Of a stretch of DNA of 64,000 bases, positions 5,659-51,611 are shown piece by piece. The notes under the pieces are model-generated. The model was not told the origin of the DNA. It saw only the letters and a list, made by a program, of their open reading frames with translations, and ran no database searches. The stretch is from Gluconacetobacter tumulisoli. GTDB taxonomy: Bacteria; Pseudomonadota; Alphaproteobacteria; Acetobacterales; Acetobacteraceae. Both the position numbers and the translations under genes were made by a program. How positions within the stretch are numbered: position 1 is the stretch's first letter; each line of letters opens with the position of its first letter. The DNA lies in assembly GCF_014174155.1 (NCBI RefSeq), contig NZ_JABEQM010000007.1:62001-126000 (forward strand), in the 5' to 3' direction.

Positions 5659-5689
5659 CGGCCGGAAGGGCCGGGCCCCGCCCGAGCCG

Positions 5690-5711
5690 GCAAGGGCCGC
5701 AGCCCTTGCCT
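5690..5711. repeat. Palindromic intergenic repeat, single-hairpin copy (E)
   Basis: CAAGGGC-CGCA-GCCCTTG with short flanks lies between the convergent small gene and etfA. It matches the third hairpin of the longer elements at 38555, 50401 and 29888. A pyrimidine-rich stretch follows on the plus strand, so it may also end transcription. Confidence 0.55.
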
Positions 5712-5716
5712 TTCCC

Positions 5717-6649
5717 TTATTCCGCGCTGTCCAGCGCGGCCTCGATCTGCGGCAGGGCCTCGAACAGATCGGCGACCAGGCCGTAATCGGCGACCTGGAA
5801 GATCGGGGCCTCCGGGTCCTTGTTGATGGCGACGATCACCTTGCTGTCCTTCATGCCGGCCAGGTGCTGGATCGCGCCGGAGATGCCGACGGCGATGTAC
5901 AGCTCGGGCGCGACGATCTTGCCGGTCTGCCCGACCTGGTAGTCGTTTGGTACGAAGCCCGCATCGACGGCCGCACGGGACGCGCCGATGGCCGCCCCAA
6001 GCCGGTCGGCCAGCGGGTTGAGGAGCTTGAAATTCTCCTCGTTCTGCATGCCGCGCCCACCGGAGACGACGATTCGGGCGGAGTCCAGTTCCGGCCGCTC
6101 GGATTTCGAGCGTTCGATCGAGACGAATTCGGACAGGACCGGGGCCTCGGGCGCCGTCACGTCGCGCACCGCCGCATTGCCGCCCTCGGCCGGGGCCGGG
6201 TCGAAATGCGCGGCGCGGACCGTCAGCACCTTCTTCGCGTCCGACGATTTCACCGTCGCCAGGGCGCTGCCGGCATAGATCGGGCGGACGAAGCTGTCCG
6301 CATCGAGGATCGACACCACGTCGGGGATCGGCTGCACGTCCAGCAGGGCCGCGGCCCGCGGCAGCACGTTCTTGGCGGTGGCGCCCGATGCCGCGACGAC
6401 ATGGCTGTAATCCCCGGCCAGCGCGGCGATCAGGGCGGCCAGCGGTTCGGCCAGGTCGTGGGCGCTGCCGGCATCGGTCGCATGCAGGACCTGGGCGACG
6501 CCGGGGATCTTCGCCGCGGCGGCGGCAACGGACGCATCGCCGGTGACCAGGGCATGCACGTCGCCAAGGGTCAGCGCCGCCGTGACGGCTGACCGGGACG
6601 CCTGCCTGATCGCGCCGGCCTCATGGTCAAGCAGAACGAGTACGGTCAT
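5717..6649 (-). CDS. etfA: Electron transfer flavoprotein subunit alpha
   Basis: FAD-binding subunit of the soluble ETF heterodimer that collects electrons from acyl-CoA and related dehydrogenases. 310 residues. The C-terminal half carries the ETF-alpha signature: [17 protein letters not shown] followed by [20 protein letters not shown]. It is last of three genes in order ETF-QO, etfB, etfA; only 2 nt separate it from etfB. It converges on a small gene at 5455-5658, with a palindromic repeat between. Confidence 0.96.
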
Positions 6650-18390: not shown

Positions 18391-18450
18391 CGGGGCGCTG
18401 CCCCGAGCCCGGGCACAGGGCGGTCGCCCTGGGCAAACAATCCCGGGCGC
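18391..18450. repeat. Palindromic intergenic repeat (F)
   Basis: Hairpins CGGGGC-GCT-GCCCCG and CAGGGC-GGTC-GCCCTG, then AAACAAT-CCCGGG, between convergent pqqE and the symporter gene. It has the arm-loop-arm layout of the family, with different stem sequences that still pair. Confidence 0.5.
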
Positions 18451-29064: not shown

Positions 29065-29083
29065 TCCCCACGCCGAACGCGAC

Positions 29084-29872
29084 ATGACGGCAGGGCAGGA
29101 CGACGCCGCGCGGGCGACGGAGTCGCCATCTTCGGGGCCCCTGCCGGCGGCGCCCCGCGCGGGGGCGCCTCTATCCGCCACCGACGTCAAGGCGTCGCCG
29201 GATCGGCTGTACGGCCGGCACCGGGGGCATCCGCTGCGGCCCCGTCAGCAGCGCCTGCTGGACCTGACGCTGCCGCGCCTGCGCCTGGCCCCTTCCGTAC
29301 TGACCGACCCCGTGCGCGGGTTTGGCCGCGCGCCCTCCGAACTGTGGCTGGAGGTCGGGTTCGGCGGCGGCGAGCATTCGCTGGCCCAGCATGCGGCCCA
29401 TCCCGATGTCGGCTATATCGCCTGCGAAGTGTTCGAGAACGGCATGTGCTCGCTGCTGTCCCGGCTGGTGCCGGACGGGCAGGAGGACACGGCCCCGGTT
29501 CCCGAGATGCTGCGCCTGTGGGACGAGGACGCGCGCGCCTTGCTGCGCGCCCTGCCGGACCGGTCGATCGACCGGATGTTCCTGATGTTCCCCGACCCGT
29601 GGCCCAAGGCCCGACATGCCAAGCGTCGCTTCGTCCATCCCGCGACGATCCAGCTGGTCGCCCGCGTGCTGAAGCCCGGCGCCACCTGGCGTGTCGCCAG
29701 CGACGACCCGACCTACCAGGCCTGGGTGGAAGAGGTCATGGGCGCGCAGGATCTGTTCGATACCGCCCCCCCGGCCACCGAGCGGCCCGAGTGCTGGCCC
29801 CCGACCCGTTATGAGGCCAAGGCGCTGCGCGCCGGACGGCAGCCGCTGTATTGGGTGTTCACGCGGCGCTGA
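29084..29872 (+). CDS. trmB: tRNA (guanine-N7-)-methyltransferase
   Basis: Methylates G46 in the variable loop of tRNAs. 262 residues from the ATG at 29084; the frame opens inside metK. The first 40 residues are Ala/Pro-rich and dispensable-looking. The Rossmann motif is LWLEVGFGGGEH, followed by DRMFLMFPDPWPKARHAKRRFVHP, the TrmB signature containing the D-PWPK catalytic loop. Cotranscribed with metK, which supplies its SAM. It converges on the SDR gene with a palindromic repeat between. Confidence 0.94.
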   Translation: MTAGQDDAARATESPSSGPLPAAPRAGAPLSATDVKASPDRLYGRHRGHPLRPRQQRLLDLTLPRLRLAPSVLTDPVRGFGRAPSELWLEVGFGGGEHSLAQHAAHPDVGYIACEVFENGMCSLLSRLVPDGQEDTAPVPEMLRLWDEDARALLRALPDRSIDRMFLMFPDPWPKARHAKRRFVHPATIQLVARVLKPGATWRVASDDPTYQAWVEEVMGAQDLFDTAPPATERPECWPPTRYEAKALRAGRQPLYWVFTRR

Positions 29873-29887
29873 GGCCGGAGCCTGCCA

Positions 29888-29974
29888 CAAGGGCGTTGCC
29901 CTTTGGAACCCCGGAACTTCATAAACAAACGGGATGCAAGGGCTGCGGCCCTTGCCGGGTTCGGGCGGAGCCCG
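29888..29974. repeat. Palindromic intergenic repeat (C)
   Basis: Hairpin CAAGGGC-GTT-GCCCTTTG, spacer with ATAAACAAACGGGATG, hairpin CAAGGGC-TGCG-GCCCTTG, then CCGGGTTCGGGC-GGA-GCCCG. It sits between convergent trmB and SDR and matches copies A and B module by module, except that the first two hairpins appear merged. Confidence 0.7.
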
Positions 29975-30002
29975 ATCCTGAAGCTATGCCTCTTGCGCAG
30001 CC

Positions 30003-31654: not shown

Positions 31655-31694
31655 GTCAATACGACGAACGGGACAGGCAAACAGGAGCACACAG

Positions 31695-33695
31695 ATGACA
31701 GATCCGACCGTCGCGCATGCGCCGCCCGCCACCGAGCGGCCCTATGGAACCTGGCCGTCCGCCGTCACCACCGCGCTGGTCGCGGGCAAGACGGTCGGAT
31801 TGTCGGCGTTGCAGACCGACGGCGACGCGATCTTCTGGCTGGAAACCCGCCCGTCGGAGGCCGGACGAACCGTGCTGGTCCGCTGGACGGCCCAGGGCGG
31901 CACGGTCGATGTCACCCCGCCGCCGCTGGATATCGGCACGCGGGTGCATGAATACGGCGGCGGAGCCTATGTCGTGTCGGGCGGGCGTGTCGCCTTCAGC
32001 AGCCGTACCGACGGCAGCATCTGGATCGTCGAGGCGGACGGGCCGGCACGGCCGATCAGTGCCGTCGCCGGGCTGCGCTTTGCCGATTTTGCCTTCGACC
32101 CCGCCGGCGACCGGCTGTTCTGCGTGCGCGAGGACCATCGCGCGGGGGGCGAGCCGGTCTCGACCCTCGTGGCGTTGCCGCTGGCGGCCGGCGATCCCGC
32201 GACGCAGGAGGGGCGGATCCTGGTGTCCGGCCCGGATTTCGTCAGTTCGCCCCGGCCGTCGCCGGATGGGCGGTATCTGGCATGGATCGAATGGAACCAC
32301 CCGTCGATGCCCTGGGAGGCGACACGCCTGCGCGTCGCCCGCCTGGCGCGCGACGCGAGCGGCGGATGCGCGCTGGACGATGCCCGGACGATGGCGGGCG
32401 ATGGCGAGCCGGAATCGGTCATCGAACCCGCCTGGGCGGACGCGCAGGTGCTGTACGCGGCGTCGGACCGCAGCGGCTGGTGGAACCTGCTGCGCTTCAC
32501 CCTGCCGGACGGCGCCCCCGCGCCCGTCGCCCCGATGGAGGCCGAGATCGGCCTGCCGCACTGGGTGTTCGGGCAACGCAGCTATCGCCCCCTGGCCGAC
32601 GGGTCGATCCTGGCCATCGCGATCGACCATGGCGAGGGGCGGACGATCCGCATCACGGGCGGCGCGCCGCCGTCCGTGACGGTTCGTCCCGCCAGCCTGG
32701 GCCACCCGGCGCAGTGCCCGGCCCCGCTGCCGGACGGGTCGCTGGCCTGGATCGATACCCCGCCCGACGGACCGCCGGCGGTGGTGCACGGCCATGACGG
32801 CGTGCCGCCGGACATCCTGCGCGTGGCGACAGACCTGCCGCTGGCGCCCGGCGACATCGCGCGGGCCGAGACGATCCGTTTCCCGCTGCCCGACGGGCCG
32901 GGTGGGGCGCTGCGGGGACACGCGTTCTTCTACCCCCCGGCCAACAGCCGTTTCCACGGCCCGGCGGACGAAAGGCCGCCCTTGATCGTGATGGCCCATG
33001 GCGGCCCGACCGGCCGGGCAAGCGAGGCCTTTTCCTTCAAGGTGCAATGGTGGACCAGCCGCGGCTTCGCCGTCGTCGACGTCAATTATGGCGGGTCGAC
33101 GGGCTTCGGGCGTACCTATCGCCAACGGCTGGAGGGGAAATGGGGCGAAATCGACGTGGCGGACTGCATCGCCGCCTGCCAGCATCTGATCGAGACCGGC
33201 CGCGTCGATCCGCACCGCGTCGCCATTCGCGGCAGCAGCGCCGGCGGCCTGACGGTGCTGCTGGCGCTGGCCCGGTCCAGCCTGTTCGCCGCGGGCGCCA
33301 GCCTGTACGGCGTCACCGACCTGCGCGCCCTGGCGCAGGAGACGCATAAATTCGAATCCCGCTACCTCGACAGCCTGGTCGGTCCCTATCCGGCAGCCGA
33401 GGCCACCTACCTGGCTCGCTCCCCCCTGACGCAGGCCACGGGAATTCGTGCCCCCGTATTATTCCTGCACGGGCTGGACGACGCCGTGGTCCCCCCCGGC
33501 CAGGCCCGCGCCATGGCGCACGCCCTGGCGGACAACGGGGTTCCACACGCGCATTACGAATTCCCGGGCGAAAGCCACGGTTTCCGGCGCGAAGAGACAA
33601 TCCGCCGCGCGCTGGACCTGGAACTGGATTTCTACGGCCAGATCTTCGGCTTTACGGTCCCGGACGTCAGCGAAAGGGTCGTCATGCGGTCCTGA
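31695..33695 (+). CDS. S9 family prolyl oligopeptidase-type serine peptidase
   Basis: 666 residues, cytosolic (no signal peptide). An N-terminal beta-propeller region (about 1-400, with FVSSPRPSPDGRYLAWIEWNHP typical of the DPP/AAP blades) caps an alpha/beta hydrolase domain. Catalytic Ser lies in RGSSAGGLT, Asp in HGLDDAVVPPGQA and His in GESHGFR. GGSTGFGRTYRQRL is a family signature of acylaminoacyl-peptidases and dipeptidyl aminopeptidases. Probably degrades short peptides. Divergent from dedA; a single hairpin repeat follows the stop. Confidence 0.92.
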   Translation: MTDPTVAHAPPATERPYGTWPSAVTTALVAGKTVGLSALQTDGDAIFWLETRPSEAGRTVLVRWTAQGGTVDVTPPPLDIGTRVHEYGGGAYVVSGGRVAFSSRTDGSIWIVEADGPARPISAVAGLRFADFAFDPAGDRLFCVREDHRAGGEPVSTLVALPLAAGDPATQEGRILVSGPDFVSSPRPSPDGRYLAWIEWNHPSMPWEATRLRVARLARDASGGCALDDARTMAGDGEPESVIEPAWADAQVLYAASDRSGWWNLLRFTLPDGAPAPVAPMEAEIGLPHWVFGQRSYRPLADGSILAIAIDHGEGRTIRITGGAPPSVTVRPASLGHPAQCPAPLPDGSLAWIDTPPDGPPAVVHGHDGVPPDILRVATDLPLAPGDIARAETIRFPLPDGPGGALRGHAFFYPPANSRFHGPADERPPLIVMAHGGPTGRASEAFSFKVQWWTSRGFAVVDVNYGGSTGFGRTYRQRLEGKWGEIDVADCIAACQHLIETGRVDPHRVAIRGSSAGGLTVLLALARSSLFAAGASLYGVTDLRALAQETHKFESRYLDSLVGPYPAAEATYLARSPLTQATGIRAPVLFLHGLDDAVVPPGQARAMAHALADNGVPHAHYEFPGESHGFRREETIRRALDLELDFYGQIFGFTVPDVSERVVMRS

Positions 33696-33719
33696 CGCGA
33701 GGCCCTGCCCCGCACCCCG

Positions 33720-33739
33720 CCAAAGGCGGTCGCCTTTGG
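33720..33739. repeat. Palindromic intergenic repeat, single-hairpin copy (H)
   Basis: CCAAAGGC-GGTC-GCCTTTGG followed by AAA, 25 bp after the S9 peptidase stop. It corresponds to the second hairpin of copies A and B. Confidence 0.5.
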
Positions 33740-34247
33740 AAATCATGTGTTGAGGACGACGATATCTTTGCGAACATCGCTTGTATTGCTCCAAGCCAGT
33801 CACCTGACGAGGACCTACAATTCGAGAGTGGACTTTCCATGACGACTTCTATGATCCCCTCTCGAACATTCAATATAGGGGAAGGGTTTTTTGGAAACGC
33901 ACATCGGTTCGGCAGGACAGAAGATCGGAATTGTCGGGAAAACGGTTGGTCTGCTTTTAGTCAGACACTGTGCAAATCGGACATTCGCACGGTTGAATCG
34001 ACGTCCGGTGCGCGCGCATTGGTGCCCGAGACCATACCCGGTTTCCGGAGGCCATGGCTGCATTACGGCCTACCCCCTTGGGAGCATAGCGCATGCCTAT
34101 TTTGACTGGCGCCCGAACCGATGACGGATCTTCGTTCTGATGGAGGTTACGGCCGGACTGGGTGCCTTTGCATTCGCCAGAATCGGTAAAACCGGCGGAG
34201 GGTAAAGACCTTTCGTGACCCATCCGCCAGCCTGATCAGACGTCCTC
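33740..34247. other. Low-GC intergenic stretch without a confident gene
   Basis: About 500 bp, clearly less GC-rich than the flanks. One plus-strand frame stays open from about 33754 to 34105 (an ATG-started part at 33839-34105, 88 codons), but its start is unclear and the sequence is unfamiliar. No promoter, RNA gene or IS end is recognised. It may be eroded foreign DNA. Confidence 0.4.
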
Positions 34248-35528
34248 TCAAACCGCCCTGGCCGCTGCCCGCGCAGCCATCTTCTCTTCCTCGGTCCAGA
34301 CTTTGCGCTCCCGCTTCTTCTGCGGCTTGATTTCCTTGGCCGGCGCACCGCCCAGAACGGGTGGGCGCATGGTCGAGTTCCGCGCCGCCTCCGAATGCCA
34401 CTGGTGATCGGCTTGAACGATCAGAGTGCGGCCGATTTCCCGCTCGACATCGCGCAGCCAGGCGCGCTGCTCGGCATCGCAGAGCGTGATGGCGAAGCCG
34501 TTGCGGCCAGCGCGGCCGGTGCGGCCTATGCGGTGGACATAGCTTTCCGGAAGGCTCGGCAGGTCATGGTTGAAAACATGGGTTACCGTGTCGACGTCGA
34601 TGCCGCGTGCTGCGATATCCGTCGCCACCAGGACCTGCGCGGTTCCGGAACGGAAGGCGTCCAGCGCGCGTTCCCGCTGGCCCTGCGACTTGTTGCCGTG
34701 CAGAGCCTCGGCCGTGATGCCCGCCTCGGTGATGAAGGCGCAGACTTCGTTGGCAATGTTCTTCTGCAAAGTGAAGACCACGGCCTGGCCGATCCCCGGC
34801 GTTCGCAGCAGCGCCAGGAGCGCCGCCTTCTTGTCGGCCGCATCGACGAACATGACCGACTGCTCGATCCGGTCGACGGTGGTTGAGGGCGGGGCGATCT
34901 CGACCTTCGCCGGATCGCGCAGGAGGCTCTCGGCCAGCGAGGCGATGGATTTCGGCATCGTTGCCGAAAACAGCAGGGTATGCCGATCCTTCGGCAGCGT
35001 CGCAACGATGCGCTCGATCGGCTTGGCGAAGCCCATGTCGAGCATCTGGTCGGCCTCGTCCAGCACCAGCGCCTCAAGCTGCGACAGGTCGCAGAGGCCC
35101 TGGTTGATCAGATCCAGCAACCGCCCCGGCGTGGCCACGATGATGTCTACGCCAGCCTTGAGCGCATTCACCTGGTGAAACTGACTGACGCCGCCGAAAA
35201 TCGTTGTCACGCTGGGCTGCAGATGGCGACCGAAGCTCTCGAAGCCGTCGGCGATCTGGGAAACCAGTTCGCGCGTGGGCGCGAGGACTAGGACACGGGC
35301 ACCGCCCTTGGGCGCCGGGCGGGGCGTCATGGCAAGGCGATGCAACAGCGGCAGCGCGAAAGCGGCGGTCTTGCCCGTGCCGGTCTGAGCCATGCCCAGC
35401 AGGTCGCGGCCTTCCAGCAGCATCGGGATGGACTGGGCCTGGATCGGGGTGGGATTGGCATACCCTTCCTCGGCCAGTGCGCGTAGCAGGGTCGGCGCCA
35501 GGGAGAGGTCGGCGAAAGTCATGGACAT
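34248..35528 (-). CDS. DEAD-box RNA helicase (RhlE-like)
   Basis: ATP-dependent RNA unwinding, often in ribosome assembly or cold response. 426 residues from the ATG at 35528; TTG 35534 and ATG 35522 are alternatives. All helicase motifs are visible in order: Q motif NPTPIQAQSIP, AQTGTGKT, PTRELVSQI, VATPGRL, LDEADQMLD, FSATMP, ATDIAARGID and HRIGRTGRAGRNG. The tail is basic (KEIKPQKKRERKVWTEEEK). Its base composition is a little less GC-biased than most neighbours, and it borders a low-GC region on each side. Confidence 0.95.
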   Translation of the reverse strand: MSMTFADLSLAPTLLRALAEEGYANPTPIQAQSIPMLLEGRDLLGMAQTGTGKTAAFALPLLHRLAMTPRPAPKGGARVLVLAPTRELVSQIADGFESFGRHLQPSVTTIFGGVSQFHQVNALKAGVDIIVATPGRLLDLINQGLCDLSQLEALVLDEADQMLDMGFAKPIERIVATLPKDRHTLLFSATMPKSIASLAESLLRDPAKVEIAPPSTTVDRIEQSVMFVDAADKKAALLALLRTPGIGQAVVFTLQKNIANEVCAFITEAGITAEALHGNKSQGQRERALDAFRSGTAQVLVATDIAARGIDVDTVTHVFNHDLPSLPESYVHRIGRTGRAGRNGFAITLCDAEQRAWLRDVEREIGRTLIVQADHQWHSEAARNSTMRPPVLGGAPAKEIKPQKKRERKVWTEEEKMAARAAARAV

Positions 35529-35713
35529 GGTCAAGCGGCGCCTCCGGCGCTGAATAAGGCTGCGCCTGTTCGGGCTTCGCTGGTTCGGGACGCGGACTTT
35601 TACGGGTGATGCTACATCCCGTCAACGCGGAGAAAAGGGACGCGTGGTGGTTTTCCCCTCCACCCGCGCCTGTCCCACACTCCACCCGCTGAACCGCCGC
35701 GCCCACTGTCGGC

Positions 35714-35790
35714 GCAGTATATATCGAACGCATGTTCGGCTGCATGAAGGACTGGCAGCAGACTGCCATACGTCACGACTGCCTCGGTGA
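35714..35790 (+). pseudogene. Relic of an IS5-family transposase C-terminus
   Basis: The plus-strand frame reads YIERMFGCMKDWQQTAIRHDCLGE and then stops. This matches the IERMF-x-(K/L)KDW-x3-AT/IR-D segment around the catalytic Glu of IS5/IS1031-type DDE transposases from memory of that family. Only about 25 codons survive, with no terminal repeats visible, so it is a fragment of an old insertion. The remaining gap 35529-35838 shows no gene. Confidence 0.6.
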
Positions 35791-35838
35791 GTAAGCGGAG
35801 GGTCCGCTATAGAGTGAACGGCTTCAGTGGCGAGCACA

Positions 35839-36387
35839 TCAACCATGTCTACCATGACCGACCGACTCCGAACCGACCGGTTTCGGGGGACAATCCACGG
35901 TCAGCATGCTGACTTCTAACGCTGGAAAGGTCATTTGGGATGACCGTCTCTCCAACTCGATTCTGTCCAGGCAGGTTTGCCCGAGTTCTCGTTGGGCCAA
36001 TTGGGGCGAGGTCTCATTCAGCACGTACCTGTCATGCTGAGGCCGGAGGTTGCCAGCCCAATGATAGGGAGCTCCCCGATACAGAATGGCATCACATCGT
36101 TCAGCAAGCGTACGATAAAGACTGTTGTCGGACCCGCAACTGTAAAGCAAAGCTACGTTGATCTGCTTCTCCCCGCATGAAGCGGTTACCGTCATAAACA
36201 ATGCCGCGTCGTCGGGCTCGGTTACTGTGACGCTCCACCCTGCATCGCGGAGCGGTCTCACAAGATCACGCATGCAGTCTTCAGCAAGCACGGCTTTGCG
36301 CAAGGTCACCCCATTGTCGGTCGGCAATTCAGTTACAAGCCGACCATTTTTCTGGTAAATGTCCTGCTCAATCAAATTCATTTGCAT
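35839..36387 (-). CDS. Unknown protein, partner of HEPN-like gene
   Basis: 182 residues from the ATG at 36387 (AGGTG just upstream; TTG 36408 and ATG 36381 also possible). I do not recognise the family. The visible pattern is alpha/beta: helix LRKAVLAEDCMRDLVRPLRDAG, strand WSVTVTE, strands LFMTVTASCGEKQINVALLY, then LAERCDAILYRGAPYH and a basic helical tail. No signal or membrane segment. Overlaps the upstream gene by 20 bp, so the two form one unit. Less GC-rich than the surroundings, which suggests transfer. A paired factor for the upstream protein is a reasonable guess only. Confidence 0.6.
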   Translation of the reverse strand: MQMNLIEQDIYQKNGRLVTELPTDNGVTLRKAVLAEDCMRDLVRPLRDAGWSVTVTEPDDAALFMTVTASCGEKQINVALLYSCGSDNSLYRTLAERCDAILYRGAPYHWAGNLRPQHDRYVLNETSPQLAQRELGQTCLDRIELERRSSQMTFPALEVSMLTVDCPPKPVGSESVGHGRHG

Positions 36388-36880
36388 CTGCACCTGACCG
36401 CGAAACAATGCCTGCTGCCAGAAGCTTGCTGGCGTCGTTCATCTCCGGAAGCATGAATGAAACGTGATGACTCGCGTCATACCAAGATTCTATGGCAGAC
36501 AGAGTCGCCAACGCTACGATCAAACGACTGAAATTTCTCGGCTGCTGCCAGGACGACGCCGTGCCGTGAGCGAACATGTGCCGATTGAGCCATGTTAGTC
36601 CTCTATAATCGGCAGTGTTGCAAAAGAAGTGACTTTTAAGCCAGCGGCGAAAGGTCTCGAACGCAAAAACGCACTCATCCTGTCCAAAAAGATAGTCCGT
36701 GGTCTTGTAGGCGTCGGGAACCCACATACCAACATCGCGTGCGACGGTGATCGGATCAGCCACCCCTTTTTCGCTTGCCCAACTGGCTATGCGATCGGGC
36801 GTCAATGCTTGAAGCGACGGCTCCTTCAGTGCCCGCTGCCAGATCCCCTTGAACAGGCGCAGGGAGTCAGGTGAAACCAT
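36368..36880 (-). CDS. Unknown helical protein with HEPN-like R-x4-H-G motif
   Basis: 170 residues, mostly helical, rich in Trp and Phe. Residues 98-106 read LNRHMFAHG. An Arg (100) four residues before a His (105) and then Gly is the pattern of HEPN ribonucleases and of RNA-linked HEPN relatives, and it is followed by a helix NFSRLIVALATLSAIESWYD, as in such domains. The assignment is inference from this motif and the helical context. ATG at 36880 with AAGGA at 5 nt. First gene of a two-gene unit; a TATAAT lies just upstream. Composition differs from core genes. Confidence 0.6.
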   Translation of the reverse strand: MVSPDSLRLFKGIWQRALKEPSLQALTPDRIASWASEKGVADPITVARDVGMWVPDAYKTTDYLFGQDECVFAFETFRRWLKSHFFCNTADYRGLTWLNRHMFAHGTASSWQQPRNFSRLIVALATLSAIESWYDASHHVSFMLPEMNDASKLLAAGIVSRSGADANEFD

Positions 36881-36907
36881 GGCGTCCTTACAAAGCCGGC
36901 AAGATCA

Positions 36908-36913
36908 ATTATA
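36908..36913 (-). promoter_or_regulatory. Candidate -10 element of the HEPN-like pair
   Basis: On the minus strand TATAAT, a perfect -10 box, ends 28 nt before the ATG at 36880. The -35 region is weak. A run of AT-rich sequence like this is rare in the window. Confidence 0.45.
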
Positions 36914-37228
36914 GTGCTACGCTAGCCGGAAAGATTTTCGCGACAATCTCCCAGCGTCTAACGAATGAGCTATCATCGTTGGATATCCGGTTTCGGACGT
37001 GAGATCGGACTGCCCGAACGTCTGAAAATAGAGGCGGTAGCGGCCAGTCGTCCTTGTTCGGGTTCGGTCCGCTTTTTCATTATATCTTTCCGAAAGTCGC
37101 CAGTCCGTATCCGGCCGATCATGCCATGGCGAATGCCGGTTTGTTCGCAATCCCATTTCAGACGAACAGACCGTAAGCCATCTCTCGTGGCCGTGGCCGC
37201 GCGGGCATAATCGCTGCGATCTACGCAT
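36914..37228. other. Gap between thiolase 3' end and HEPN-like pair
   Basis: About 315 bp of reduced GC. Several short frames are open on both strands, including one continuing past the thiolase stop in another frame, but none has a start, ribosome site or recognisable sequence. I see nothing further in it. Confidence 0.35.
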
Positions 37229-37273
37229 GGGATCAAAGGGCCGAGGCCCTTTGCGGGTTCGGGCAGCGCCCGA
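37229..37273. repeat. Palindromic intergenic repeat (D)
   Basis: GGGATC, hairpin CAAAGGGC-CGAG-GCCCTTTG, then CGGGTTCGGGC-AGC-GCCCG, ending 3 bp before the thiolase stop codon. It corresponds to the last two modules of copies A-C. Confidence 0.65.
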
Positions 37274-37276
37274 GCG

Positions 37277-38458
37277 TCACACCCGTTCGAAGATCGCGGC
37301 GATGCCCTGTCCGCCGCCGATGCACAGGCTGACCAGGCCGGTCTGAGCGCCGGTGCGGGCCAGTTCGTGGACCAGGCGGACGGTGGCGATGGCGCCGCTG
37401 GCGCCGATCGGGTGGCCGAGGGAGATGCCGCTGCCGTTCGGATTGACCCGCGCGGGGTCCAGGTCCAGGACGCGGCTGACGGCGCAGGCCTGGGCGGCGA
37501 AGGCCTCGTTGATTTCCAGGATGTCGAGGTCCGCGATGCCCAGGCCTGCGCGGTCCAGCGCGGCGCGGGTGGCGGGTACGGGGCCCATGCCCATGTGCGA
37601 GGGTTCCACCCCCGCGTGGCCGTAGGCGACGAGGCGCGCCAGCGGTGCCAGGCCCAGGCGGCGCACCGCGTCTTCGGATGCCAGCACGACCATGGCCGCG
37701 CCGTCATTGATCCCCGACGCGTTGCCCGCCGTGACCGTGCCGCCGTCCTTGAGGAAGGCAGGGCGTAATGCGTCGAAATCGGCCCGGACGGCATCGTGGC
37801 GCACATGTTCGTCACGGTCGAACAGGGTGGTGCGGCCGCCGGCGCGGATTTCGATGGGAACGATCTGATCGTCGAAATAGCCGGCGCGGATGGCCGCCGA
37901 GGCCCGGTGGTGGCTTTCTAATGCCAGATCATCCTGCATGGCGCGGGTAATGCCGTGGCGGCGGGCGACATTTTCCGCCGTCATCCCCATATGGACATCG
38001 TCGAACGGGTCCGTCAGCGCGCCCACCAGCAGGTCCAGCAGGGTCTGGTTGCCCAGCCGCCGGCCGAAACGGGCGTCGGTCGCCAGTTGGGGGGCGCGGC
38101 TCATGATTTCGACGCCGCCGGCCACGGCGATATCGGCGTCACCCAGGCGGATGGCCTGCGCGGCCGAGACGATGGCCTGCAGGCCCGAACCGCAGATCCG
38201 GTTGACGTTCATCGCCACCGTGCCCACCGGCAGCCCCGCCCGCACCGCCGCGTGACGCGAAAGATACAAATCGGTCGGTTCGGTCGGGATCACCTGCCCC
38301 AGCACGACCTGCCCCACCGCATCCGCCGGAAGGCCGGCCCGCGCGACGGCGGCGGCGATCAGCCGTGCCGCCAGCGCCGACGGGGCGGTGCCGCGCAGGG
38401 CGCCCCCGAAACCGCCGATCGCACTGCGCACGGCCGAGACGACGAAGATGCTGGTCAT
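37277..38458 (-). CDS. Thiolase (acetyl-CoA C-acetyltransferase family)
   Basis: Condenses or cleaves acyl-CoA thioesters. 393 residues from the ATG at 38458; the frame extends to 38509 without family sequence. The nucleophilic Cys89 lies in VNRICGSGLQAI. The second-half motifs NEAFAAQA, NPNGSGISLGHPIGASGA (His) and CIGGGQGIA (second Cys) are all present. This is the biosynthetic-type thiolase layout, but a beta-ketoadipyl-CoA thiolase cannot be excluded. No dehydrogenase or hydratase is adjacent; a sugar porter lies upstream. Confidence 0.93.
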   Translation of the reverse strand: MTSIFVVSAVRSAIGGFGGALRGTAPSALAARLIAAAVARAGLPADAVGQVVLGQVIPTEPTDLYLSRHAAVRAGLPVGTVAMNVNRICGSGLQAIVSAAQAIRLGDADIAVAGGVEIMSRAPQLATDARFGRRLGNQTLLDLLVGALTDPFDDVHMGMTAENVARRHGITRAMQDDLALESHHRASAAIRAGYFDDQIVPIEIRAGGRTTLFDRDEHVRHDAVRADFDALRPAFLKDGGTVTAGNASGINDGAAMVVLASEDAVRRLGLAPLARLVAYGHAGVEPSHMGMGPVPATRAALDRAGLGIADLDILEINEAFAAQACAVSRVLDLDPARVNPNGSGISLGHPIGASGAIATVRLVHELARTGAQTGLVSLCIGGGQGIAAIFERV

Positions 38459-38554
38459 GACCGAGGGATCCGGACGATATGTTGGTTTTTGTTGACGGCA
38501 TGATGGCATGTTTCATGCGGCCGCTCCACTCCCGAGGCAGGAGGGAGGAGAAGG

Positions 38555-38666
38555 CAAGGGCTCTGCCCTTGACCCACCAAAGGGCTTAGCCCTTTGGAAA
38601 GCCTAGATTTTGTAAAACAAATGGGATGCAAGGGCCGAGGCCCTTGCCGGGTTCGGACAGAGCCCC
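38555..38666. repeat. Palindromic intergenic repeat, full copy (A)
   Basis: Four modules in order: CAAGGGC-TCT-GCCCTTG plus ACCCACC; CAAAGGGC-TTA-GCCCTTTGGAAA; an AT-rich hairpin around ATTTTGTAAAACAAAT; and GCAAGGGC-CGAG-GCCCTTGC followed by CGGGTTCGGAC-AGAGCCC. It fills the gap between the thiolase start and the sugar-porter stop. Confidence 0.8.
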
Positions 38667-38675
38667 ACCTTGATA

Positions 38676-40124
38676 TCAGGCCTCCACGATCGCGGTGTGG
38701 CCGCGGGTGGGACGGAAGCGTCCCTCGTGCAGGGCGGTTTCGATGTCTTCGAGGGACGCGCCCCGCGTTTCGGGCACGAGGAAGAAGATGAACACGACCG
38801 ACGCCAGATTGACCCCGGCATAGAACCACATCGTCCCGCCCAGCGAGATCAGATTCACCAGGGTCAGCGCCGTGCTGGTCACCAGCAGGTCACTGCCCCA
38901 CAGGGTGGCGGCATGCAGGCTGGTCGCGGTGCCGCGCATCGACAGCGGGAACATTTCGGCCCCCAGCAGCCAGCCGACCACCTGGATGCCGCCGGAATTG
39001 AACATCATGAACATCAGCAGGAACACGATGATCATCCAGCTGCCGACGCTGCCCTTGTCGGGATGGAGGGCGAACATCAGGCCCAGCCCCAGCAGGCTGA
39101 CGACCGACCCCGGCCCCATGATCAGCATCAGGCGACGCCGGCCGACATGATCGACGATCGCCGACCCCAGCATCGTCATCACCAGATAGACCACCGAGAC
39201 GCCCAGGCTGGCCAGCAGGGCGGAGGAATGACCGAAGCCCGCATCCGACAGGAAGGTCGGCGCATAGTAGATCATCATCTCCAGCCCGCCGCACTGGGTG
39301 AAGAAGGCGACGCCCAGCGCCGCGACCAGGGCCGGCCGCACCCAGGGCTGCCGCAGGCCGCGCCAGCCGCGATTTTCGTCGGCGACGTTATCCGATGCTT
39401 CCTGAATCTTCCTGATTTCCTTACGGATTTCCTTGCGCGAGGTCCGCACGCGCGTCAGTTGCGCGATCGCGGAGTCCAGTCCCTCGTTCTCCGCCGTCCA
39501 GCGCGGGCTCTTGGGCAGGAAGAACATCGACACGAACACGAAGGCCGCCGGCAGGGCCGCGATGGCGATCATGGGGCGCCAGCCCCAGGCGTCACGCGCG
39601 GAGAAGCCGATGATGTTGGCCAGGAAGATGCCGATGCCGATCGCGACGTTGAACAGCGTGACCAGCTTGCCGCGCCGGGCCGCGGGCGCCAGTTCCGAGA
39701 TGTACATGGGGACCACCTGCGTCGATCCGCCGACGCCGAGGCCCAGATAGACACGCGCCGCGATCAGCATGCCGACATCCGGGGCGGCGGCGCAGGCCAG
39801 CGCGCCGGTCACGAATACGGCGGTGACGATCATGACCGAGGCGCGACGGCCATAGCGTTCAGACAGCCACCCCGTGCCGACGGCCCCCACCACCGCACCC
39901 GCCAGGATCGCGGAGGCGACGAGTTCCTGGTACAGGCTGCCGAGATGGAAATCCTGCGTGATCAGCAGCAACGCGCCCGAGATGATGCCGGTGTCGTAGC
40001 CGTAGAGGCCGCCACATATGGCGGCCACGGCGGCTGCGAGCCAGAGAGTGCGCCCCGCGTTGTCCGAAACCTCGAAATCGGACAGCGCGGGAAGGGCGGG
40101 GGCCTGCGGCGAGAAATTCTGCAT
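38676..40124 (-). CDS. Sugar porter family MFS transporter
   Basis: 482 residues, twelve membrane helices. Sugar porter marks: GYDTGIISGALLLI in helix 1, SERYGRRASVM after helix 2, RVYLGLGVGGSTQVVPMYISELAP (helix 4-5), LPKSPRW ending the first half, GRRRLM in the second half and the C-terminal LVPETRGASLEDIE. The middle loop is strongly charged (RKEIRKEIRKI). Proton-coupled sugar uptake is the usual role; substrate unknown. A second porter of the family lies at 48945-50333. Confidence 0.93.
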   Translation of the reverse strand: MQNFSPQAPALPALSDFEVSDNAGRTLWLAAAVAAICGGLYGYDTGIISGALLLITQDFHLGSLYQELVASAILAGAVVGAVGTGWLSERYGRRASVMIVTAVFVTGALACAAAPDVGMLIAARVYLGLGVGGSTQVVPMYISELAPAARRGKLVTLFNVAIGIGIFLANIIGFSARDAWGWRPMIAIAALPAAFVFVSMFFLPKSPRWTAENEGLDSAIAQLTRVRTSRKEIRKEIRKIQEASDNVADENRGWRGLRQPWVRPALVAALGVAFFTQCGGLEMMIYYAPTFLSDAGFGHSSALLASLGVSVVYLVMTMLGSAIVDHVGRRRLMLIMGPGSVVSLLGLGLMFALHPDKGSVGSWMIIVFLLMFMMFNSGGIQVVGWLLGAEMFPLSMRGTATSLHAATLWGSDLLVTSTALTLVNLISLGGTMWFYAGVNLASVVFIFFLVPETRGASLEDIETALHEGRFRPTRGHTAIVEA

Positions 40125-40210
40125 CCTGTTCTCCCTCTTCGGAAAAAAGCTTCAGTCTCCTGCCATGTTGCGGGGCTTCGCGGGGATGCCCATCCTGGCG
40201 GGCGAACGTT

Positions 40211-41632
40211 TCAGGCCGATCGTGGAGACAGGGCCGCCTTCATGTCCCCGATCGTGGAGAGCGTGTCGTGCAACGTGCTCCAATCGTCCCGGGTTGCAAT
40301 CGGCTGCCATATCTTCTCCACCGTTTCGACCAGCATCGTGCAGGGCACGGTCCGCGAAAAATAGGGATCGGAAAGATCCAGACCCGGCCGGGGAGAATGG
40401 GCCTCGATCCGCTGTCGCAACGGCTCGAAATCCGCACTCTCGTAGAGGCGGGCATTGGGACTGTTCGCTGCGCGATGCCTGCTCTGCGTTCCACCATACC
40501 AGTCGAAGAACAAAAATTCAAACCCTATGGCCGATCGTTCGAGAAATCGCCACGTCTCGGCCGCCAGCGCGCGGTCGTCCGTTTCGGAAAGGGACGACAG
40601 GCCAAGGCGTTTCACGATGACGCCGTTCATCTCCCTTCCATAACGATCCGGGAAATCGTCGAAGATCTTCTGCAGATCATCAACATTCGCCAGCGGAATC
40701 AGGCATTCCGCCAGCCGGGCCAGGTTCCACAGCAGGGCCTCGGGCTGGCGTCCGAAGGCGTACAGGCCCGAATGGTCGAAATAGGCGGCGGTGAAGGCCG
40801 GGTCGTAGCGCGGCAGGAAACGCCATGGACCGTAATCGAAGCTTTCGCCCGTGACGTTTATGTTGTCGGTGTTCAGCACGCCGTGGACGAACCCCGCACC
40901 CATCCATTGCGCGCCCATCCGCGCGACCCGCGCGCAGACGATGTCGAACAGCGCCACCGCCGCATCGCCCGCGCCCGCCCGGTCGGGGAAGTAGGTGTCC
41001 ATCACATAGGCGACCAGCCGCGCCAGGCTGGCCCGGTCGTCCAGCGCCGCCAGACGCTGGAACGTGCCGATGCGAATATGGGAGTGGCTGAGGCGCGCCA
41101 GCACGCATGACCGGGTGGGCGAGGGTTCGTCCCCGCGCTGCAGATTCTCGCCCGTCTCGATGACGCTGAGGGTGCGCGACGTCTCGACGCCCAGGGCCTC
41201 CAGCATTTCGGTGGCCAGGATCTCGCGCACGCCGCCCTTCAGCGTCAGCCGCCCGTCGGCGCCGCGCGACCAGGGCGTACGGCCGCTGCCCTTGGTCCCG
41301 ATATCCAGAAGCCGCCCGTCACGGACGTCGCGCAACTGCGCGAACAGAAAGCCCCGCCCGTCGCCCAGCTCGGGGTTGTAGGACCGGAACTGATGCCCGT
41401 GATAGCGCAGGGCCAGGGGCGTGGGCAGCCCGTCCGGCAGCGGGACGAAGCGGCCGAAATGGGCGATCCATTCGTCGTCGGTCAGGCTGTCCAGCCCGAT
41501 TTCGGCCGCCGCCGCCTGGTTGCGGAACCGCAGGATGTGCGCGGGGAACGACGCCGCCGCGACCGGGTCGTAGAAGGCGTCGCCGAGACGCAGATGATCG
41601 CAGGCCGGACGGTAGGAGGCGGAAACGGGCAT
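40211..41632 (-). CDS. Protein adenylyltransferase SelO family (YdiU)
   Basis: Pseudokinase-fold enzyme that transfers AMP to protein hydroxyls, linked to redox stress. 473 residues from the ATG at 41632 (AAGGA upstream); the frame is open to 41734. Family words: YRPACDHLRLGDAFYDPV, YHGHQFRSYNPELGDGRG, DIGTKGSGRTPWSRGADGRL, HGVLNTDNINVTGESFDYGPW (metal and nucleotide residues). The C-terminus ends KAALSPRSA and lacks the Cys-rich or selenocysteine C-terminal motif found in many SelO proteins. Confidence 0.93.
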   Translation of the reverse strand: MPVSASYRPACDHLRLGDAFYDPVAAASFPAHILRFRNQAAAAEIGLDSLTDDEWIAHFGRFVPLPDGLPTPLALRYHGHQFRSYNPELGDGRGFLFAQLRDVRDGRLLDIGTKGSGRTPWSRGADGRLTLKGGVREILATEMLEALGVETSRTLSVIETGENLQRGDEPSPTRSCVLARLSHSHIRIGTFQRLAALDDRASLARLVAYVMDTYFPDRAGAGDAAVALFDIVCARVARMGAQWMGAGFVHGVLNTDNINVTGESFDYGPWRFLPRYDPAFTAAYFDHSGLYAFGRQPEALLWNLARLAECLIPLANVDDLQKIFDDFPDRYGREMNGVIVKRLGLSSLSETDDRALAAETWRFLERSAIGFEFLFFDWYGGTQSRHRAANSPNARLYESADFEPLRQRIEAHSPRPGLDLSDPYFSRTVPCTMLVETVEKIWQPIATRDDWSTLHDTLSTIGDMKAALSPRSA

Positions 41633-41648
41633 GAGGCAGCTCCTTGAA

Positions 41649-41754
41649 GGCTGTTTGAAATGCACGCGGGCGGCGGATCCGGCGTGCGTTTCTGCGCGCC
41701 GTGCCGGGTGGCCCGGAAGGCCGCCCCTACGCACCGGCGCGTTTCCAAACAGCC
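41649..41754. repeat. MITE-like inverted repeat
   Basis: GGCTGTTTG at 41649-41657 and CAAACAGCC at 41746-41754 are perfect complements, and similarity continues inward for about 18 bp (AAATGCACGC against GCGCGTTTC). The roughly 106-bp element lies just upstream of the SelO gene. A single end-like sequence recurs at 60338. Confidence 0.5.
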
Positions 41755-41768
41755 CCTTATATCATCTG

Positions 41769-41846
41769 GCCGGGCAGGCCGGGCCCCTGCCCGATCCCCC
41801 GATTGATAAACAAATCGGTTTCCCGGGGCCCCTGGCCTTTGGCGGA
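41769..41846. repeat. Palindromic intergenic repeat, inverted copy (I)
   Basis: Read on the minus strand it aligns with copy B: CCAAAGGCCAGGGGCC, CCGATT-TGTTTAT-CAATCGG, GGGATCGGGCAGGGGCCCGGCCTGCCCG. Stem sequences differ from other copies, but both arms change together. It abuts the stop of the enoyl-CoA hydratase family gene. Confidence 0.5.
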
Positions 41847-41848
41847 TG

Positions 41849-42889
41849 TCAGGGCGCCGGGAAGATCGGCAGGTCCAGCGAGTCCGCACGCGGAGCGAAG
41901 CAGGCCTCGATATCGGCGGCGGTTGCCGTCGCGGCGTCGGCCCAGCGCGGCGCGTTGTCCTTGTCCAGGATCTTGGCGCGCACGCCCTCGGCGAAATCGG
42001 GATGGCGGATCAGGCTGGCGATCAGGCGATATTCCTGTTCCAGCACCGTATTCAGGTCCGGCAGCCGACGGGCGGTGTGATACGCCCGGAAGGTGACGCG
42101 CAGCGCGAAGGGCGAGGCCTGGCCCAGCGCACGCAGGTCCTCGGCCGCCCAGGGGTCGGGGCAGGCGGCCAGGCGATCCATGATGGCCTCGACGCCCGGG
42201 GCGTCATAGATGGCGTTCACGCTGTCGGGACGCGGCATGTCCGGCCGGTCGACCGGCCGGGCCATGTCGACGACCTGCCCCGCCGGCTGGGCGGCGAGAC
42301 GATCCACCAGGTCGGGCAGGGCGGCGGACGGCAGCATCCGGTCGGCGAAACCCGCCGCCACGGCCTCGGCGCCCTGCATGCGGCCGCCCGTCAAGGCCAT
42401 CCGCAGGCCATACAGGCCGGGCGCGCGCGACAGGATGTACGACCCGCCGGCATCCGGGGTCAGGCCGATCGCGGTCTCGGGCATCGCCACCACGCTGCGT
42501 TCGGTCACGATCCGGTGCCGCACATGGCCGCCCAGCCCGACGCCGCCGCCCATGGCGATGCCGTCCATGAAGGACACCACCGGCTTGGGAAAATGCGCCA
42601 GCACCGATGCCAGGCGGTAGCCGTCGCGGAAGATCGCGGCGGCGGCGTCCGGGCCGTGCGCCGCCAGCGCCGCGCGGATGGCCCGCAGGTCGCCGCCGGC
42701 GCAGAAGGCGCGGGGGCTGGTGCTGTCGATCAGGATCGTCTCGATCCCCGGATCGTCGCGCCAGGCCTCAAGGCAGGCGGCGATCCGGTAAAACAGCGGA
42801 CGGTCGAGCGCATTGAGCGCCTTCGGACGGTTGAGGGTCAGCCGCCCGAGGCGGCCCTGCCGCGCGGTCAACAGCGTGTCGGCATCCAT
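41849..42889 (-). CDS. Enoyl-CoA hydratase/isomerase family protein (3-hydroxyisobutyryl-CoA hydrolase type)
   Basis: 346 residues from the ATG at 42889 with AGGAGG upstream. The crotonase core is clear: LNRPKALNALD, FCAGGDLRAI (oxyanion hole), MDGIAMGGGVGLGGH, and ETAIGLTPDAGGSYILSR. The length near 350 and the C-terminal part (ALGQASPFALRVTFRAYH, EYRLIASLIRHPDFAEGVRAKILDKDNAPRW) are those of the HIBYL-CoA hydrolase subgroup acting in valine breakdown, and not of 260-residue hydratases. Divergent from the flavin reductase. Confidence 0.9.
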   Translation of the reverse strand: MDADTLLTARQGRLGRLTLNRPKALNALDRPLFYRIAACLEAWRDDPGIETILIDSTSPRAFCAGGDLRAIRAALAAHGPDAAAAIFRDGYRLASVLAHFPKPVVSFMDGIAMGGGVGLGGHVRHRIVTERSVVAMPETAIGLTPDAGGSYILSRAPGLYGLRMALTGGRMQGAEAVAAGFADRMLPSAALPDLVDRLAAQPAGQVVDMARPVDRPDMPRPDSVNAIYDAPGVEAIMDRLAACPDPWAAEDLRALGQASPFALRVTFRAYHTARRLPDLNTVLEQEYRLIASLIRHPDFAEGVRAKILDKDNAPRWADAATATAADIEACFAPRADSLDLPIFPAP

Positions 42890-42993
42890 GTTGGTGGTTT
42901 CCTCCTGTTTTCCCCTGAGTGATAATATGACAGAAGATGCACGGAGCGGGGTATCGGCCGACAGGGTCGGACACCGGCAGGAAAGGTGCAAGA

Positions 42994-43503
42994 ATGGCGG
43001 TTGATTCCCAGACCTACCGGGATGCGATGGCGCGGCTGGGCGCCGCGGTCAACGTCGTCACGACGGGGACGCGCGACGATCCGGTCGGCTTCACCGCATC
43101 CGCCGTCTGTTCGGTCACCGACGCGCCGCCCACCCTGCTGGTCTGCATGAACCGGGAATCCCGCGCCCGTCCGGCCTTTCACGCCGGCGGCCCGCTCTGC
43201 ATCAACGTGCTGTCGGCCGGGCAGCGGGACATTTCCGGCGCGTTCGCCGGGAAGCTGGACATGTACGAACGCTTCACCTTCGGCCACTGGACGACGATGA
43301 CCACCGGCGCCCCGGTACTGGAGGAAGCCGTGACCTCGTTCGATTGCCGGATCGAGCGCATCGTCGAGATCGGGACCCACAGCGTCATGTTCGGCCTGGT
43401 CGAATCCATCCGGATCGGCGACGCGCTGGGCGGGCTGGTCTATTTCAACCGGGCCTATCATGCCCTGCCGCATGAGGGGCAGGGCACGCAGGAGGGCGCA
43501 TGA
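42994..43503 (+). CDS. Flavin reductase family protein (RutF/HpaC-like)
   Basis: NAD(P)H:flavin oxidoreductase, usually feeding reduced FMN or FAD to a monooxygenase. 169 residues from the ATG at 42994. Family words: GAAVNVVTTG, VGFTASAVCSVTDAPPTLLVCMNRESR (flavin-binding), INVLSAGQRDISGAFAG, and GGLVYFNRAYH at the C-terminus. No partner monooxygenase is adjacent. Its stop overlaps the start of a 44-residue membrane peptide. Divergent from the enoyl-CoA hydratase family gene with a 104-bp gap. Confidence 0.9.
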   Translation: MAVDSQTYRDAMARLGAAVNVVTTGTRDDPVGFTASAVCSVTDAPPTLLVCMNRESRARPAFHAGGPLCINVLSAGQRDISGAFAGKLDMYERFTFGHWTTMTTGAPVLEEAVTSFDCRIERIVEIGTHSVMFGLVESIRIGDALGGLVYFNRAYHALPHEGQGTQEGA

Positions 43504-43634
43504 TGGCCGCATCCCGACGCCGTTCCGGCGGCATGCCGCCGGTCATCGACGGACGCACGCTGGTCGCGCTGCATGTCGGGCTGGCACTGTTCATCGGCCT
43601 GATGGCGTGGTGGACCTGGTCGCTGCCGACCTGA
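43500..43634 (+). CDS. Small single-pass membrane peptide, function unknown
   Basis: 44 residues (ATG 43500, or ATG 43503). Basic N-terminus (MMAASRRRSGG), then a single hydrophobic helix from about residue 22 (VALHVGLALFIGLMAWWTW) and a short end. It overlaps the flavin reductase stop as ATGA, a translation-coupled arrangement that argues for a real gene. N-terminus likely inside. No family recognised. Confidence 0.55.
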   Translation: MMAASRRRSGGMPPVIDGRTLVALHVGLALFIGLMAWWTWSLPT

Positions 43635-43685
43635 ACAGGTCGGGCCTTGCCCGAACCCGCCGGGAGCGCCTGAGGCGTGCGCCAG

Positions 43686-44501: not shown

Positions 44502-44523
44502 GATCGGGATGCTACCGGCCGGG

Positions 44524-45348: not shown

Positions 45349-45376
45349 GGATGGTCCCCGGTCACTTCATGCGCTG

Positions 45377-46279: not shown

Positions 46280-46317
46280 GGCGGGACGATCCGGAGTGAG
46301 CGCGGGCAAGCACTGTA

Positions 46318-46332
46318 TGTTATAATATAACA
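46318..46332. promoter_or_regulatory. Zur operator palindrome
   Basis: TGTTATA-A-TATAACA, a perfect 15-bp palindrome centred between znuA and zur. Zur/Fur sites of this AT-rich type are typical. The TATAAT inside it (46321-46326) could serve as a -10 box for zur, so binding would block both directions. Confidence 0.8.
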
Positions 46333-46443
46333 AATATCGACCCTTCATATAGCGCGCTTTCCGGCGTATGGAAACCGGGGTTGGGCTGCCCCGTGGCATC
46401 GCCGCGCGGGACGGGCGACAGGGAGGGCAGGCGGAAGGCCGGC

Positions 46444-46974: not shown

Positions 46975-47046
46975 TTTCGGCATCGCCGCGTTCGAAAAAC
47001 ACGCCCGCCGGATGACATCCCGCCAGATCGCGATACAATCGAGGCC

Positions 47047-47850: not shown

Positions 47851-47882
47851 TCCCGCCACCCACACCGAGGACGCGCCCGCCC

Positions 47883-50342: not shown

Positions 50343-50360
50343 GAGGGGCCTTGGCCCCTC
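50343..50360 (+). terminator. Hairpin after the sugar symporter
   Basis: GAGGGGCC-TT-GGCCCCTC, perfect 8-bp arms, 10 bp after the stop. No T-run. Confidence 0.4.
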
Positions 50361-50400
50361 ATACCAACTTTCCATGGACTGACGCATGAGATGTCCCCGC

Positions 50401-50514
50401 CAAGGGCGTTGCCCTTGACCCACCAAAGGGCAGTCGCCCTTTGGAAACCCGTTCGTTGTCAAACGATCGGGGTGCAGGGCCTCGGGCCCTGCCGGGTCCA
50501 GGGCAGAGCCCTGG
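50401..50514. repeat. Palindromic intergenic repeat, full copy (B)
   Basis: CAAGGGC-GTT-GCCCTTG plus ACCCACC; CAAAGGGC-AGTC-GCCCTTTGGAAA; a middle CGTTCGTTGTCAAACG; GCAGGGC-CTCG-GGCCCTGC; then CCAGGGC-AGA-GCCCTGG. Same module order as copy A, with altered but paired stems. It lies between the convergent symporter and nucleoside hydrolase genes. Confidence 0.8.
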
Positions 50515-51506: not shown

Positions 51507-51564
51507 GATGATCTCCCCTGCGGCATTACGCAGAGCGCTGCCCTTCCCCCCAAATCCCGGGTTT

Positions 51565-51608
51565 GCAAAGGGCGACCGCCCTTTGCCGGGGCTTGAGGCA
51601 GCGCCCCG
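51565..51608. repeat. Palindromic intergenic repeat (G)
   Basis: GCAAAGGGC-GACC-GCCCTTTGC, then CGGGGC-x8-GCGCCCCG, between the nucleoside hydrolase start and the folC stop. It matches the last two modules of the longer copies. Confidence 0.6.
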
Positions 51609-51611
51609 AAC

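Follow-up and report, generated by a model that had tools for sequence, protein, structure and literature searches.

A dispersed family of four-hairpin palindromic elements lying close behind stop codons in Gluconacetobacter and related bacteria

The window is a 64,000-nucleotide stretch of a Gluconacetobacter tumulisoli contig and comes from a genome of 3.96 Mb in 49 contigs with 68.6% GC. A full four-hairpin palindromic element of 116 bases lies on its plus strand (38553..38668), in the gap separating two minus-strand genes. The first of these is a sugar-porter MFS transporter gene (38676..40124; gene call, above the NCBIfam TIGR00879 cut-off), and its stop codon is 7 nt from the element. 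On the opposite side, a beta-ketothiolase (BktB-like) gene (37277..38509; above the NCBIfam NF006552 cut-off, with a gene call that starts at 38458) has its start pointing towards the element.

All parts of this copy are read on the plus strand. Hairpin 1 (CAAGGGC-TCT-GCCCTTG, 38555..38571) has a stem that covaries family-wide. It is followed by the linker ACCCACC (38572..38578), whose CCC is able to pair with GGG in the right-hand linker. Hairpin 2 (CCAAAGGGC-TTA-GCCCTTTGG, then AAA; 38577..38597) is identified from the sequence and the covariation count. An AT-rich centre with flanking GCC and GGG (38601..38625) joins the half-units, and GGGATGC stands between this centre and hairpin 3 (GCAAGGGC-CGAG-GCCCTTGC, then CGGGT; 38628..38647). 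Hairpin 4 (TCGGAC-AGA-GCCCCA, 38653..38667) is imperfect, with two mismatched pairs; in many other copies it reads TCGGGC-AGA-GCCCGA. The RNA fold of the element has a z score of -6.7, and none of 200 shuffles is equally stable. The element scores 125.8 bits against R1, a covariance model derived from 15 full copies in the same genome, this one included.

An earlier note had listed nine positions in the window as copies of a modular palindromic repeat family. Seven of the nine are matched by R1 at E<=0.001, and 18391 and 41769 are unmatched. Five of the seven matched positions are independent of R1, because 38555 and 50401 are among its 15 copies. By eye, these two are the only listed copies with all four hairpins; the copy at 29888 is a full element with fused hairpins, and the remainder are half-units or fragments. 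The second full copy (50399..50514, plus strand, 100.2 bits) belongs to another subfamily, has convergent genes on either side, and folds with a z score of -8.4 (0 of 200 shuffles equally stable). About 40 bases ahead of it (50357-50398) are shared with a copy in relative G002 (L218 11129-11171), with 93% identity over 159 bases, and thus flanking DNA may have travelled along with some copies when they moved or were duplicated. In the copy at 29888 (29862..29976, plus strand, 79.4 bits, fold z -3.3), hairpins 1 and 2 appear fused by deletion when aligned to relative G009, where both hairpins are present.

The other matched positions are partial, and their folds are only modestly above shuffles (z -1.7 to -2.4). 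The match at 37184..37274 (plus strand, 46.4 bits) has a right half-unit, hairpins 3 and 4, as its recognisable part and lies 2 nt from the thiolase gene stop. The match at 33697..33809 is on the minus strand (30.1 bits), and its recognisable part is a plus-strand half-unit at about 33697-33745, 1 nt behind a stop. A half-unit at 51530..51611 (minus strand, 31.2 bits) adjoins the stop of folC (51612-52931), and a fragment at 5670..5765 (minus strand, 34.3 bits) has convergent genes on either side and a 49-base overlap with a called gene. The two unmatched positions are a possible degenerate half-unit (18391..18440, plus strand, fold z -1.24), which resembles a half-unit by eye, and a possible degenerate copy (41769..41850, minus strand, fold z -1.34). 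Their folds are little better than shuffles.

When 83 copies are placed side by side, the unit of about 115 bp consists of two inverted half-units that meet at the AT-rich centre. Each half-unit has the order hairpin, ACCC(A/G)CC, hairpin, GGAAACC, and these two motifs are the conserved feet of the consensus. R1 matches both strands at many places because the half-units are inverted. The modular design described earlier is thereby confirmed and made sharper. The stem of hairpin 1 occurs in sets (CAAGGGC, TCAGGGC, GCGGGGC and others), and the linkers and the order of parts are constant across subfamilies. Hybrids are seen by eye, in which half of one subfamily is joined to half, sometimes inverted, of another. 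In other genera the stems differ again, and the four hairpins remain in most copies read.

The family is widespread in the genome and in the genus. A blastn search of the same genome with the named copy gives at least 41 matches (40 of 77 candidates scored), and identity to the 40 other matches is 71-94%. R1 gives at least 123 matches there, which correspond to at least 105 distinct places with strands merged (150 of 2657 candidates scored). All 14 genus genomes have R1 matches, at least 8 to at least 147 each with both strands counted (up to 150 candidates scored). The earlier note had turned on whether further copies exist in the genome and its relatives and on whether paired changes exceed chance; both are found, the latter as described below. 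The repeat family that it observed is confirmed as real.

Outside the genus, eight of 16 chosen genomes are matched by R1: seven of nine from the same family and one, G285, from a further family. Four of the nine family genomes (G014, G016, G017 and G357) and G285 had been picked after an earlier match; among the five without one (G015, G018, G019, G021 and G023), three are matched, and the match in G023 is single and weak. None of the six genomes from six other families of the class is matched by R1. With the named copy, blastn matches 17 of 40 relatives. An exact half-unit pattern has 15 matches in the window's own genome, and its mirror control has none. Among 385 genomes of the class, the same pattern is present in three (the window's own, G357 and G285), with no match to the mirror control. 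The 18 R1 matches in G285 (L261 and further places; those listed are 132-164 bases long) have different stems, and therefore the design reaches beyond one family. In G016, a member of another genus of the family, R1 gives at least 149 matches (L262; 150 of 4793 candidates scored, and both strands may count). Many of these have other stems and a length of about 140 bases, and the genome of G016 may be much richer in copies than the window's own. No plasmid or phage record has a blastn match to the named element at E 1e-5. A known Rfam RNA family is ruled out as the identity of the element, as nothing in the whole window matches at the gathering score.

The position of the copies relative to genes was determined for 133 copies that score 32.7 bits or more and lie within 1.29 Mb taken from three genomes, with genes from a simple codon-usage caller. 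These are best-strand matches merged by hand; weaker matches (those at 51530 and 33697 included) and L219-L223 are left out. Convergent gaps hold 67 copies, tandem gaps 53 and divergent gaps 7; four copies are in genes and two at an edge. The median distance from copy to stop is 7 nt, with quartiles of -1 and 15 (n=120), and in each of four score classes 71-94% of copies are within 20 nt of a stop. The placement at 3' ends and between convergent genes given in the earlier note is thus borne out and can be narrowed to positions close behind stop codons. Relative to tandem genes, the strand of the copies is even (25 same, 28 opposite), as would be expected of a two-way structure.

Some of the stretches had been chosen for holding copies, and four long stretches were therefore taken as a fairer base (0.96 Mb, 86 copies; these contigs too were known beforehand to hold copies). 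In these, a copy is present in 42 of 134 convergent gaps, 34 of 570 tandem gaps and 5 of 134 divergent gaps (convergent versus divergent, p=1.2e-9). Room of 60 nt or more is available in 40 tandem gaps; 26 of the copies there are no more than 20 nt from the upstream stop, as against 5.2 expected, and no copy comes that close to the next start. A T-rich tract is present outside either end of 10 of the 133 copies and at 22 of 682 random intergenic points (p=0.027). Such tails are rare yet above random, which leaves room for some terminators. Canonical terminators are not in excess in window positions 28000-47999, where 8 are found and shuffles give 10.3 +/- 3.3.

Pairing was assessed on 18 copies chosen for diversity, in a MAFFT alignment fitted to no structure, with pairs taken from RNAalifold. 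Four of the 18 rows (L157, L165, L257 and L259) entered on the strand opposite their best match; the element being quasi-palindromic, they aligned and were counted. The 30 pairs recovered form the four hairpins and a CCC-GGG junction helix, and 17 of the 30 have changes on both sides, compared with 11.2 in shuffles. Both-side stem changes occupy 75 cells versus 24.2 +/- 3.8 in shuffles, 95.0% of cells are paired versus 81.0, and the covariation score is 0.392 versus 0.141. For each of these four measures, none of 500 shuffles is as high; related sequences can beat shuffles, and the structure came from the same alignment, which favours itself. The number of further pair types is unexceptional (30 versus 26.6, with 45 of 500 shuffles as high). 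Slid registers give at most 19 both-side cells, as against the 75 observed, and a separate count on best-pairing arms agrees, with a method that is biased towards pairing. The earlier statement that both arms change together therefore holds.

The three junction pairs are intact in 54 of 54 cells over the 18 copies, with one C-to-U change only. The junction helix hardly varies, so covariation gives no test of its pairing; a CCC-GGG junction is compatible with the data rather than proven by them. On the transcribed strand of 34 tandem copies, 43 G-U and 26 A-C combinations are present (p=0.053). In convergent gaps, where transcription may cover both strands, G-T and A-C occur about equally often (29 versus 25). 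The G-U excess is faintly suggestive of structure at the RNA level.

Orthologous copies, which occupy the same gap in two genomes, number 33 pairs, and 20 of these were labelled and aligned without structure. The 13 pairs omitted comprise three in opposite orientation and ten with a member outside alignment A2. Divergence counts use 19 of the 20 pairs, as one fell under 75% identity. In these 19 pairs, differences are present at 84 of 1206 stem positions (7.0%), 37 of 329 linker positions (11%), 66 of 302 positions of the AT-rich centre (22%) and 73 of 207 hairpin loop positions (35%). Stem change is below loop change in all 19 pairs, which share genomes and are not independent, and whose stem labels are taken from the model. 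For comparison, orthologous genes from these genomes differ at 10.6-17% of their fourfold sites. When the alignment is fitted to the model and all unpaired positions are pooled, the stems are slower in 17 of 20 pairs and not in the other three. The low stem change would reflect selection at single sites or conversion between copies, two causes that these counts do not fully separate.

Presence at a given site differs between species. The comparison covers 55 copies scoring 60 bits or more for which both flanks could be located in another of the three genomes; it is unrooted and gives no direction of gain or loss. The 83 comparisons comprise 48 with a copy, 25 with a clearly shorter gap and no copy, and 10 with a similar or longer gap and no model match. 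At the site of the named element, hairpin 3 alone is present in G009, the element is absent from G004, and the copy in G002 belongs to another subfamily. The site of the 50401 copy holds a solo half-unit in G009, and by eye several element-free orthologous sites still hold a single hairpin or a solo half-unit. Among the 30 copies that reach 100 bits, 16 have their closest relative within this set at a different site of another genome, 11 have it in their own genome and three at the orthologous site; many orthologues score below 100 bits and are hence outside the set. In the window's own genome, two R1 matches about 25 bases apart and in the same orientation (C2:312641-312862) are a possible tandem pair.

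The earlier note suggested a link to a RAYT-type transposase. The Y1 transposase model PF01797, which we take to cover RAYT transposases, has no match in the 14 genus genomes or in four further family genomes, and its control is positive in five of 14 named genomes, E. coli included. A second search with a positive control finds no match in 12 of 13 genomes; two of the 13 were also in the first search. Eight tested element-bearing genomes outside the genus (G014, G016, G017, G019, G021, G023, G357 and G285) likewise have no Y1 transposase match. The exception in the second search, the family member G049, has two 143-residue Y1 transposase matches (L266 and L267) and no match to the half-unit pattern; the two are presumably an ordinary IS200-type element. 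The suggested RAYT link is thus not upheld in the genus or in these eight genomes, and a RAYT-linked REP is rejected as the identity of the element, with no RAYT found and no GTAG/CGTC tag in the consensus. Neighbouring genes give no other partner: among 261 neighbours of copies, no within-genome protein cluster has three or more members, and in four neighbourhoods of close copies the genes are ordinary by eye, with none transposase-like.

Target-site duplications of 3-8 bp at a fixed offset are absent from 39 copies. Over 144 offset pairs, the best agreement is 5 of 39 for 3-mers and 1 of 39 for 6-mers. A MITE with target duplications is rejected as the identity of the element on this result. 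The ends of subfamily A are imperfectly inverted (GAAGGC and GACCTTC), and other subfamilies end differently.

No description of the present family was met in the accessible portions of the open-access literature on palindromic repeats and stem-loops. RIME is, like ERIC, an intergenic palindrome of similar size (100-130 bp); both differ from the present family in layout and sequence and are set apart from it by description, not by alignment. ERIC shares with the family a size of 100-130 bp, an intergenic place and palindromes, as far as the relevant part of PMC10969869 goes. REPIN and REP sequences with RAYT in Pseudomonas and E. coli are likewise short extragenic palindromes in many copies, with inverted pairs around a short spacer, solo halves as remnants, and hairpin or clover folds (PMC3116915, in part). 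Unlike these, the half-unit here has two hairpins and an ACCC(A/G)CC linker, and no Y1 transposase is found in the genus. REP doublets are described in the same portion of PMC3116915 as randomly distributed in extragenic space, whereas copies here lie close behind stop codons. The REP superfamilies tagged with GTAG/CGTC are also dispersed intergenic palindromes, and CGTC repeats are given as missing in several Alphaproteobacteria, the Acetobacteraceae among these (PMC3733652, in part). The consensus here, unlike them, has no such tag at the palindrome foot.

The relevant passages of PMC1590033 state that stable intergenic stem-loops occur preferentially in the first 50 bp after stop codons and avoid divergent gaps, and take the stop-codon preference as a sign that the stem-loops are transcribed. 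The stop-codon placement of the present family is, on that account, an already known general trend of stable stem-loops. Unlike those general stem-loops, as that source presents them, the copies here form a single family, in which the linkers are conserved and the design has four hairpins. A strong structure a few nucleotides behind the stop is also a feature of those E. coli REPs that lie no further than 15 nt from a stop codon, which are associated with ribosome stalling; such REPs number 446 of 4,072, and 260 of 496 in a study cited there (PMC12306157, in part). Unlike these REPs, which are short single palindromes, the family here has 71-94% of copies per score class within 20 nt of a stop. 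Lichenicola cladoniae, of the Alphaproteobacteria, is placed in the Acetobacteraceae. Putative REPs in this species number 1,369 in the text and 6,569 in Table 3 of the RepRanger survey; its counts are of single hairpins, and a four-hairpin architecture is not described in the accessible part (PMC12306157). In the portions seen of the remaining sources, PMC5756330 concerns 5'-UTRs, not 3' ends, and the palindromic repeats in PMC4686929, PMC3751514 and PMC6528568 are CRISPRs or a general list.

The preferred reading, with a probability of about 0.5, is that the family is a REPIN-like dispersed element without a RAYT, kept as a bidirectional structured mRNA 3' end. Such an element would be a dispersed, non-coding palindrome that through CCC-GGG pairing of its linkers could fold, on either strand, into a clover of hairpins. 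It would have multiplied and been remodelled in a lineage without a RAYT-type transposase, spread by another enzyme or by recombination, with exchange, fusion and loss of halves. Its position directly after stop codons is also where E. coli REPs are said to act. Copies that follow a stop codon would be transcribed and retained as a two-way structured 3' end. The first hairpin, formed a few nucleotides past the stop codon, would be expected to block 3'-5' exonucleases, to obstruct read-through into a convergent neighbour, or both. The 3'-end role is less secure because low stem change could also come from conversion between copies, and the seven of 133 copies in divergent gaps count against it. 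The interpretation in the earlier note is partly supported.

The element may instead be purely selfish DNA, with stems that serve only its spread as folded single-stranded DNA and with 3' positions that mark the survivors of a purge from genes and promoters. This is possible but doubtful. The REPIN-like inverted design, the mostly non-orthologous nearest relatives and the range of copy numbers among the genus genomes are in its favour, but promoter avoidance alone leaves the clustering behind stops in roomy tandem gaps unexplained, stem change is low against loops and fourfold sites, and no Y1 transposase is found. A MITE of a DDE transposase, with the GAAGG...CCTTC ends of one subfamily as terminal inverted repeats, would account for those imperfect inverted ends and for the presence and absence of copies between species. 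It is unlikely, given the different ends of other subfamilies, the 39 copies with no fixed-offset duplication and the lack of any protein family of three or more members among the neighbours.

The covariation might also arise without selection at the sites, if template switching within a hairpin or conversion between copies rewrites both arms. The stem types do fall into a few discrete sets, and the hybrid copies seen by eye suggest exchange between subfamilies. By reasoning, template switching should raise stem change relative to loop change, the reverse of the 7.0% and 35% observed, and other genera hold the same design with different stems; this explanation is decidedly unlikely. Ordinary intrinsic (Rho-independent) terminators that share sequence by descent would fit the positions behind stops and in convergent gaps, and the T-rich tails are somewhat above random points. 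They are a very unlikely identity for the family: a T-rich tract is missing beyond both ends in 123 of the 133 copies, the tested part of the window has no excess of canonical terminators, and four hairpins with conserved linkers are more than a terminator needs.

A wider reading is speculative. The repeats might form a large, family-wide class of mobile double-hairpin elements that spread by a non-RAYT route and are targeted to, or retained at, the few nucleotides behind stop codons. Where genes converge, they might have replaced T-tract terminators as the commonest means by which this lineage ends or caps its mRNAs, with each species evolving a stem code of its own under covariation.

RAYT transposases are the usual explanation for REP-type repeats, and a 3'-end role of such repeats has been argued from E. 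coli. Here a REP-like logic, with inverted palindromic units behind stops, is present in genomes where no RAYT was found. The natural variation of the family (subfamilies, solo halves, differences at orthologous sites and 14 genus genomes) offers a test of what spreads such repeats, and the family allows a test of whether a dispersed hairpin becomes a functional mRNA end. For annotators, it means that many 3' hairpins in this bacterial family stem from one repeat family.
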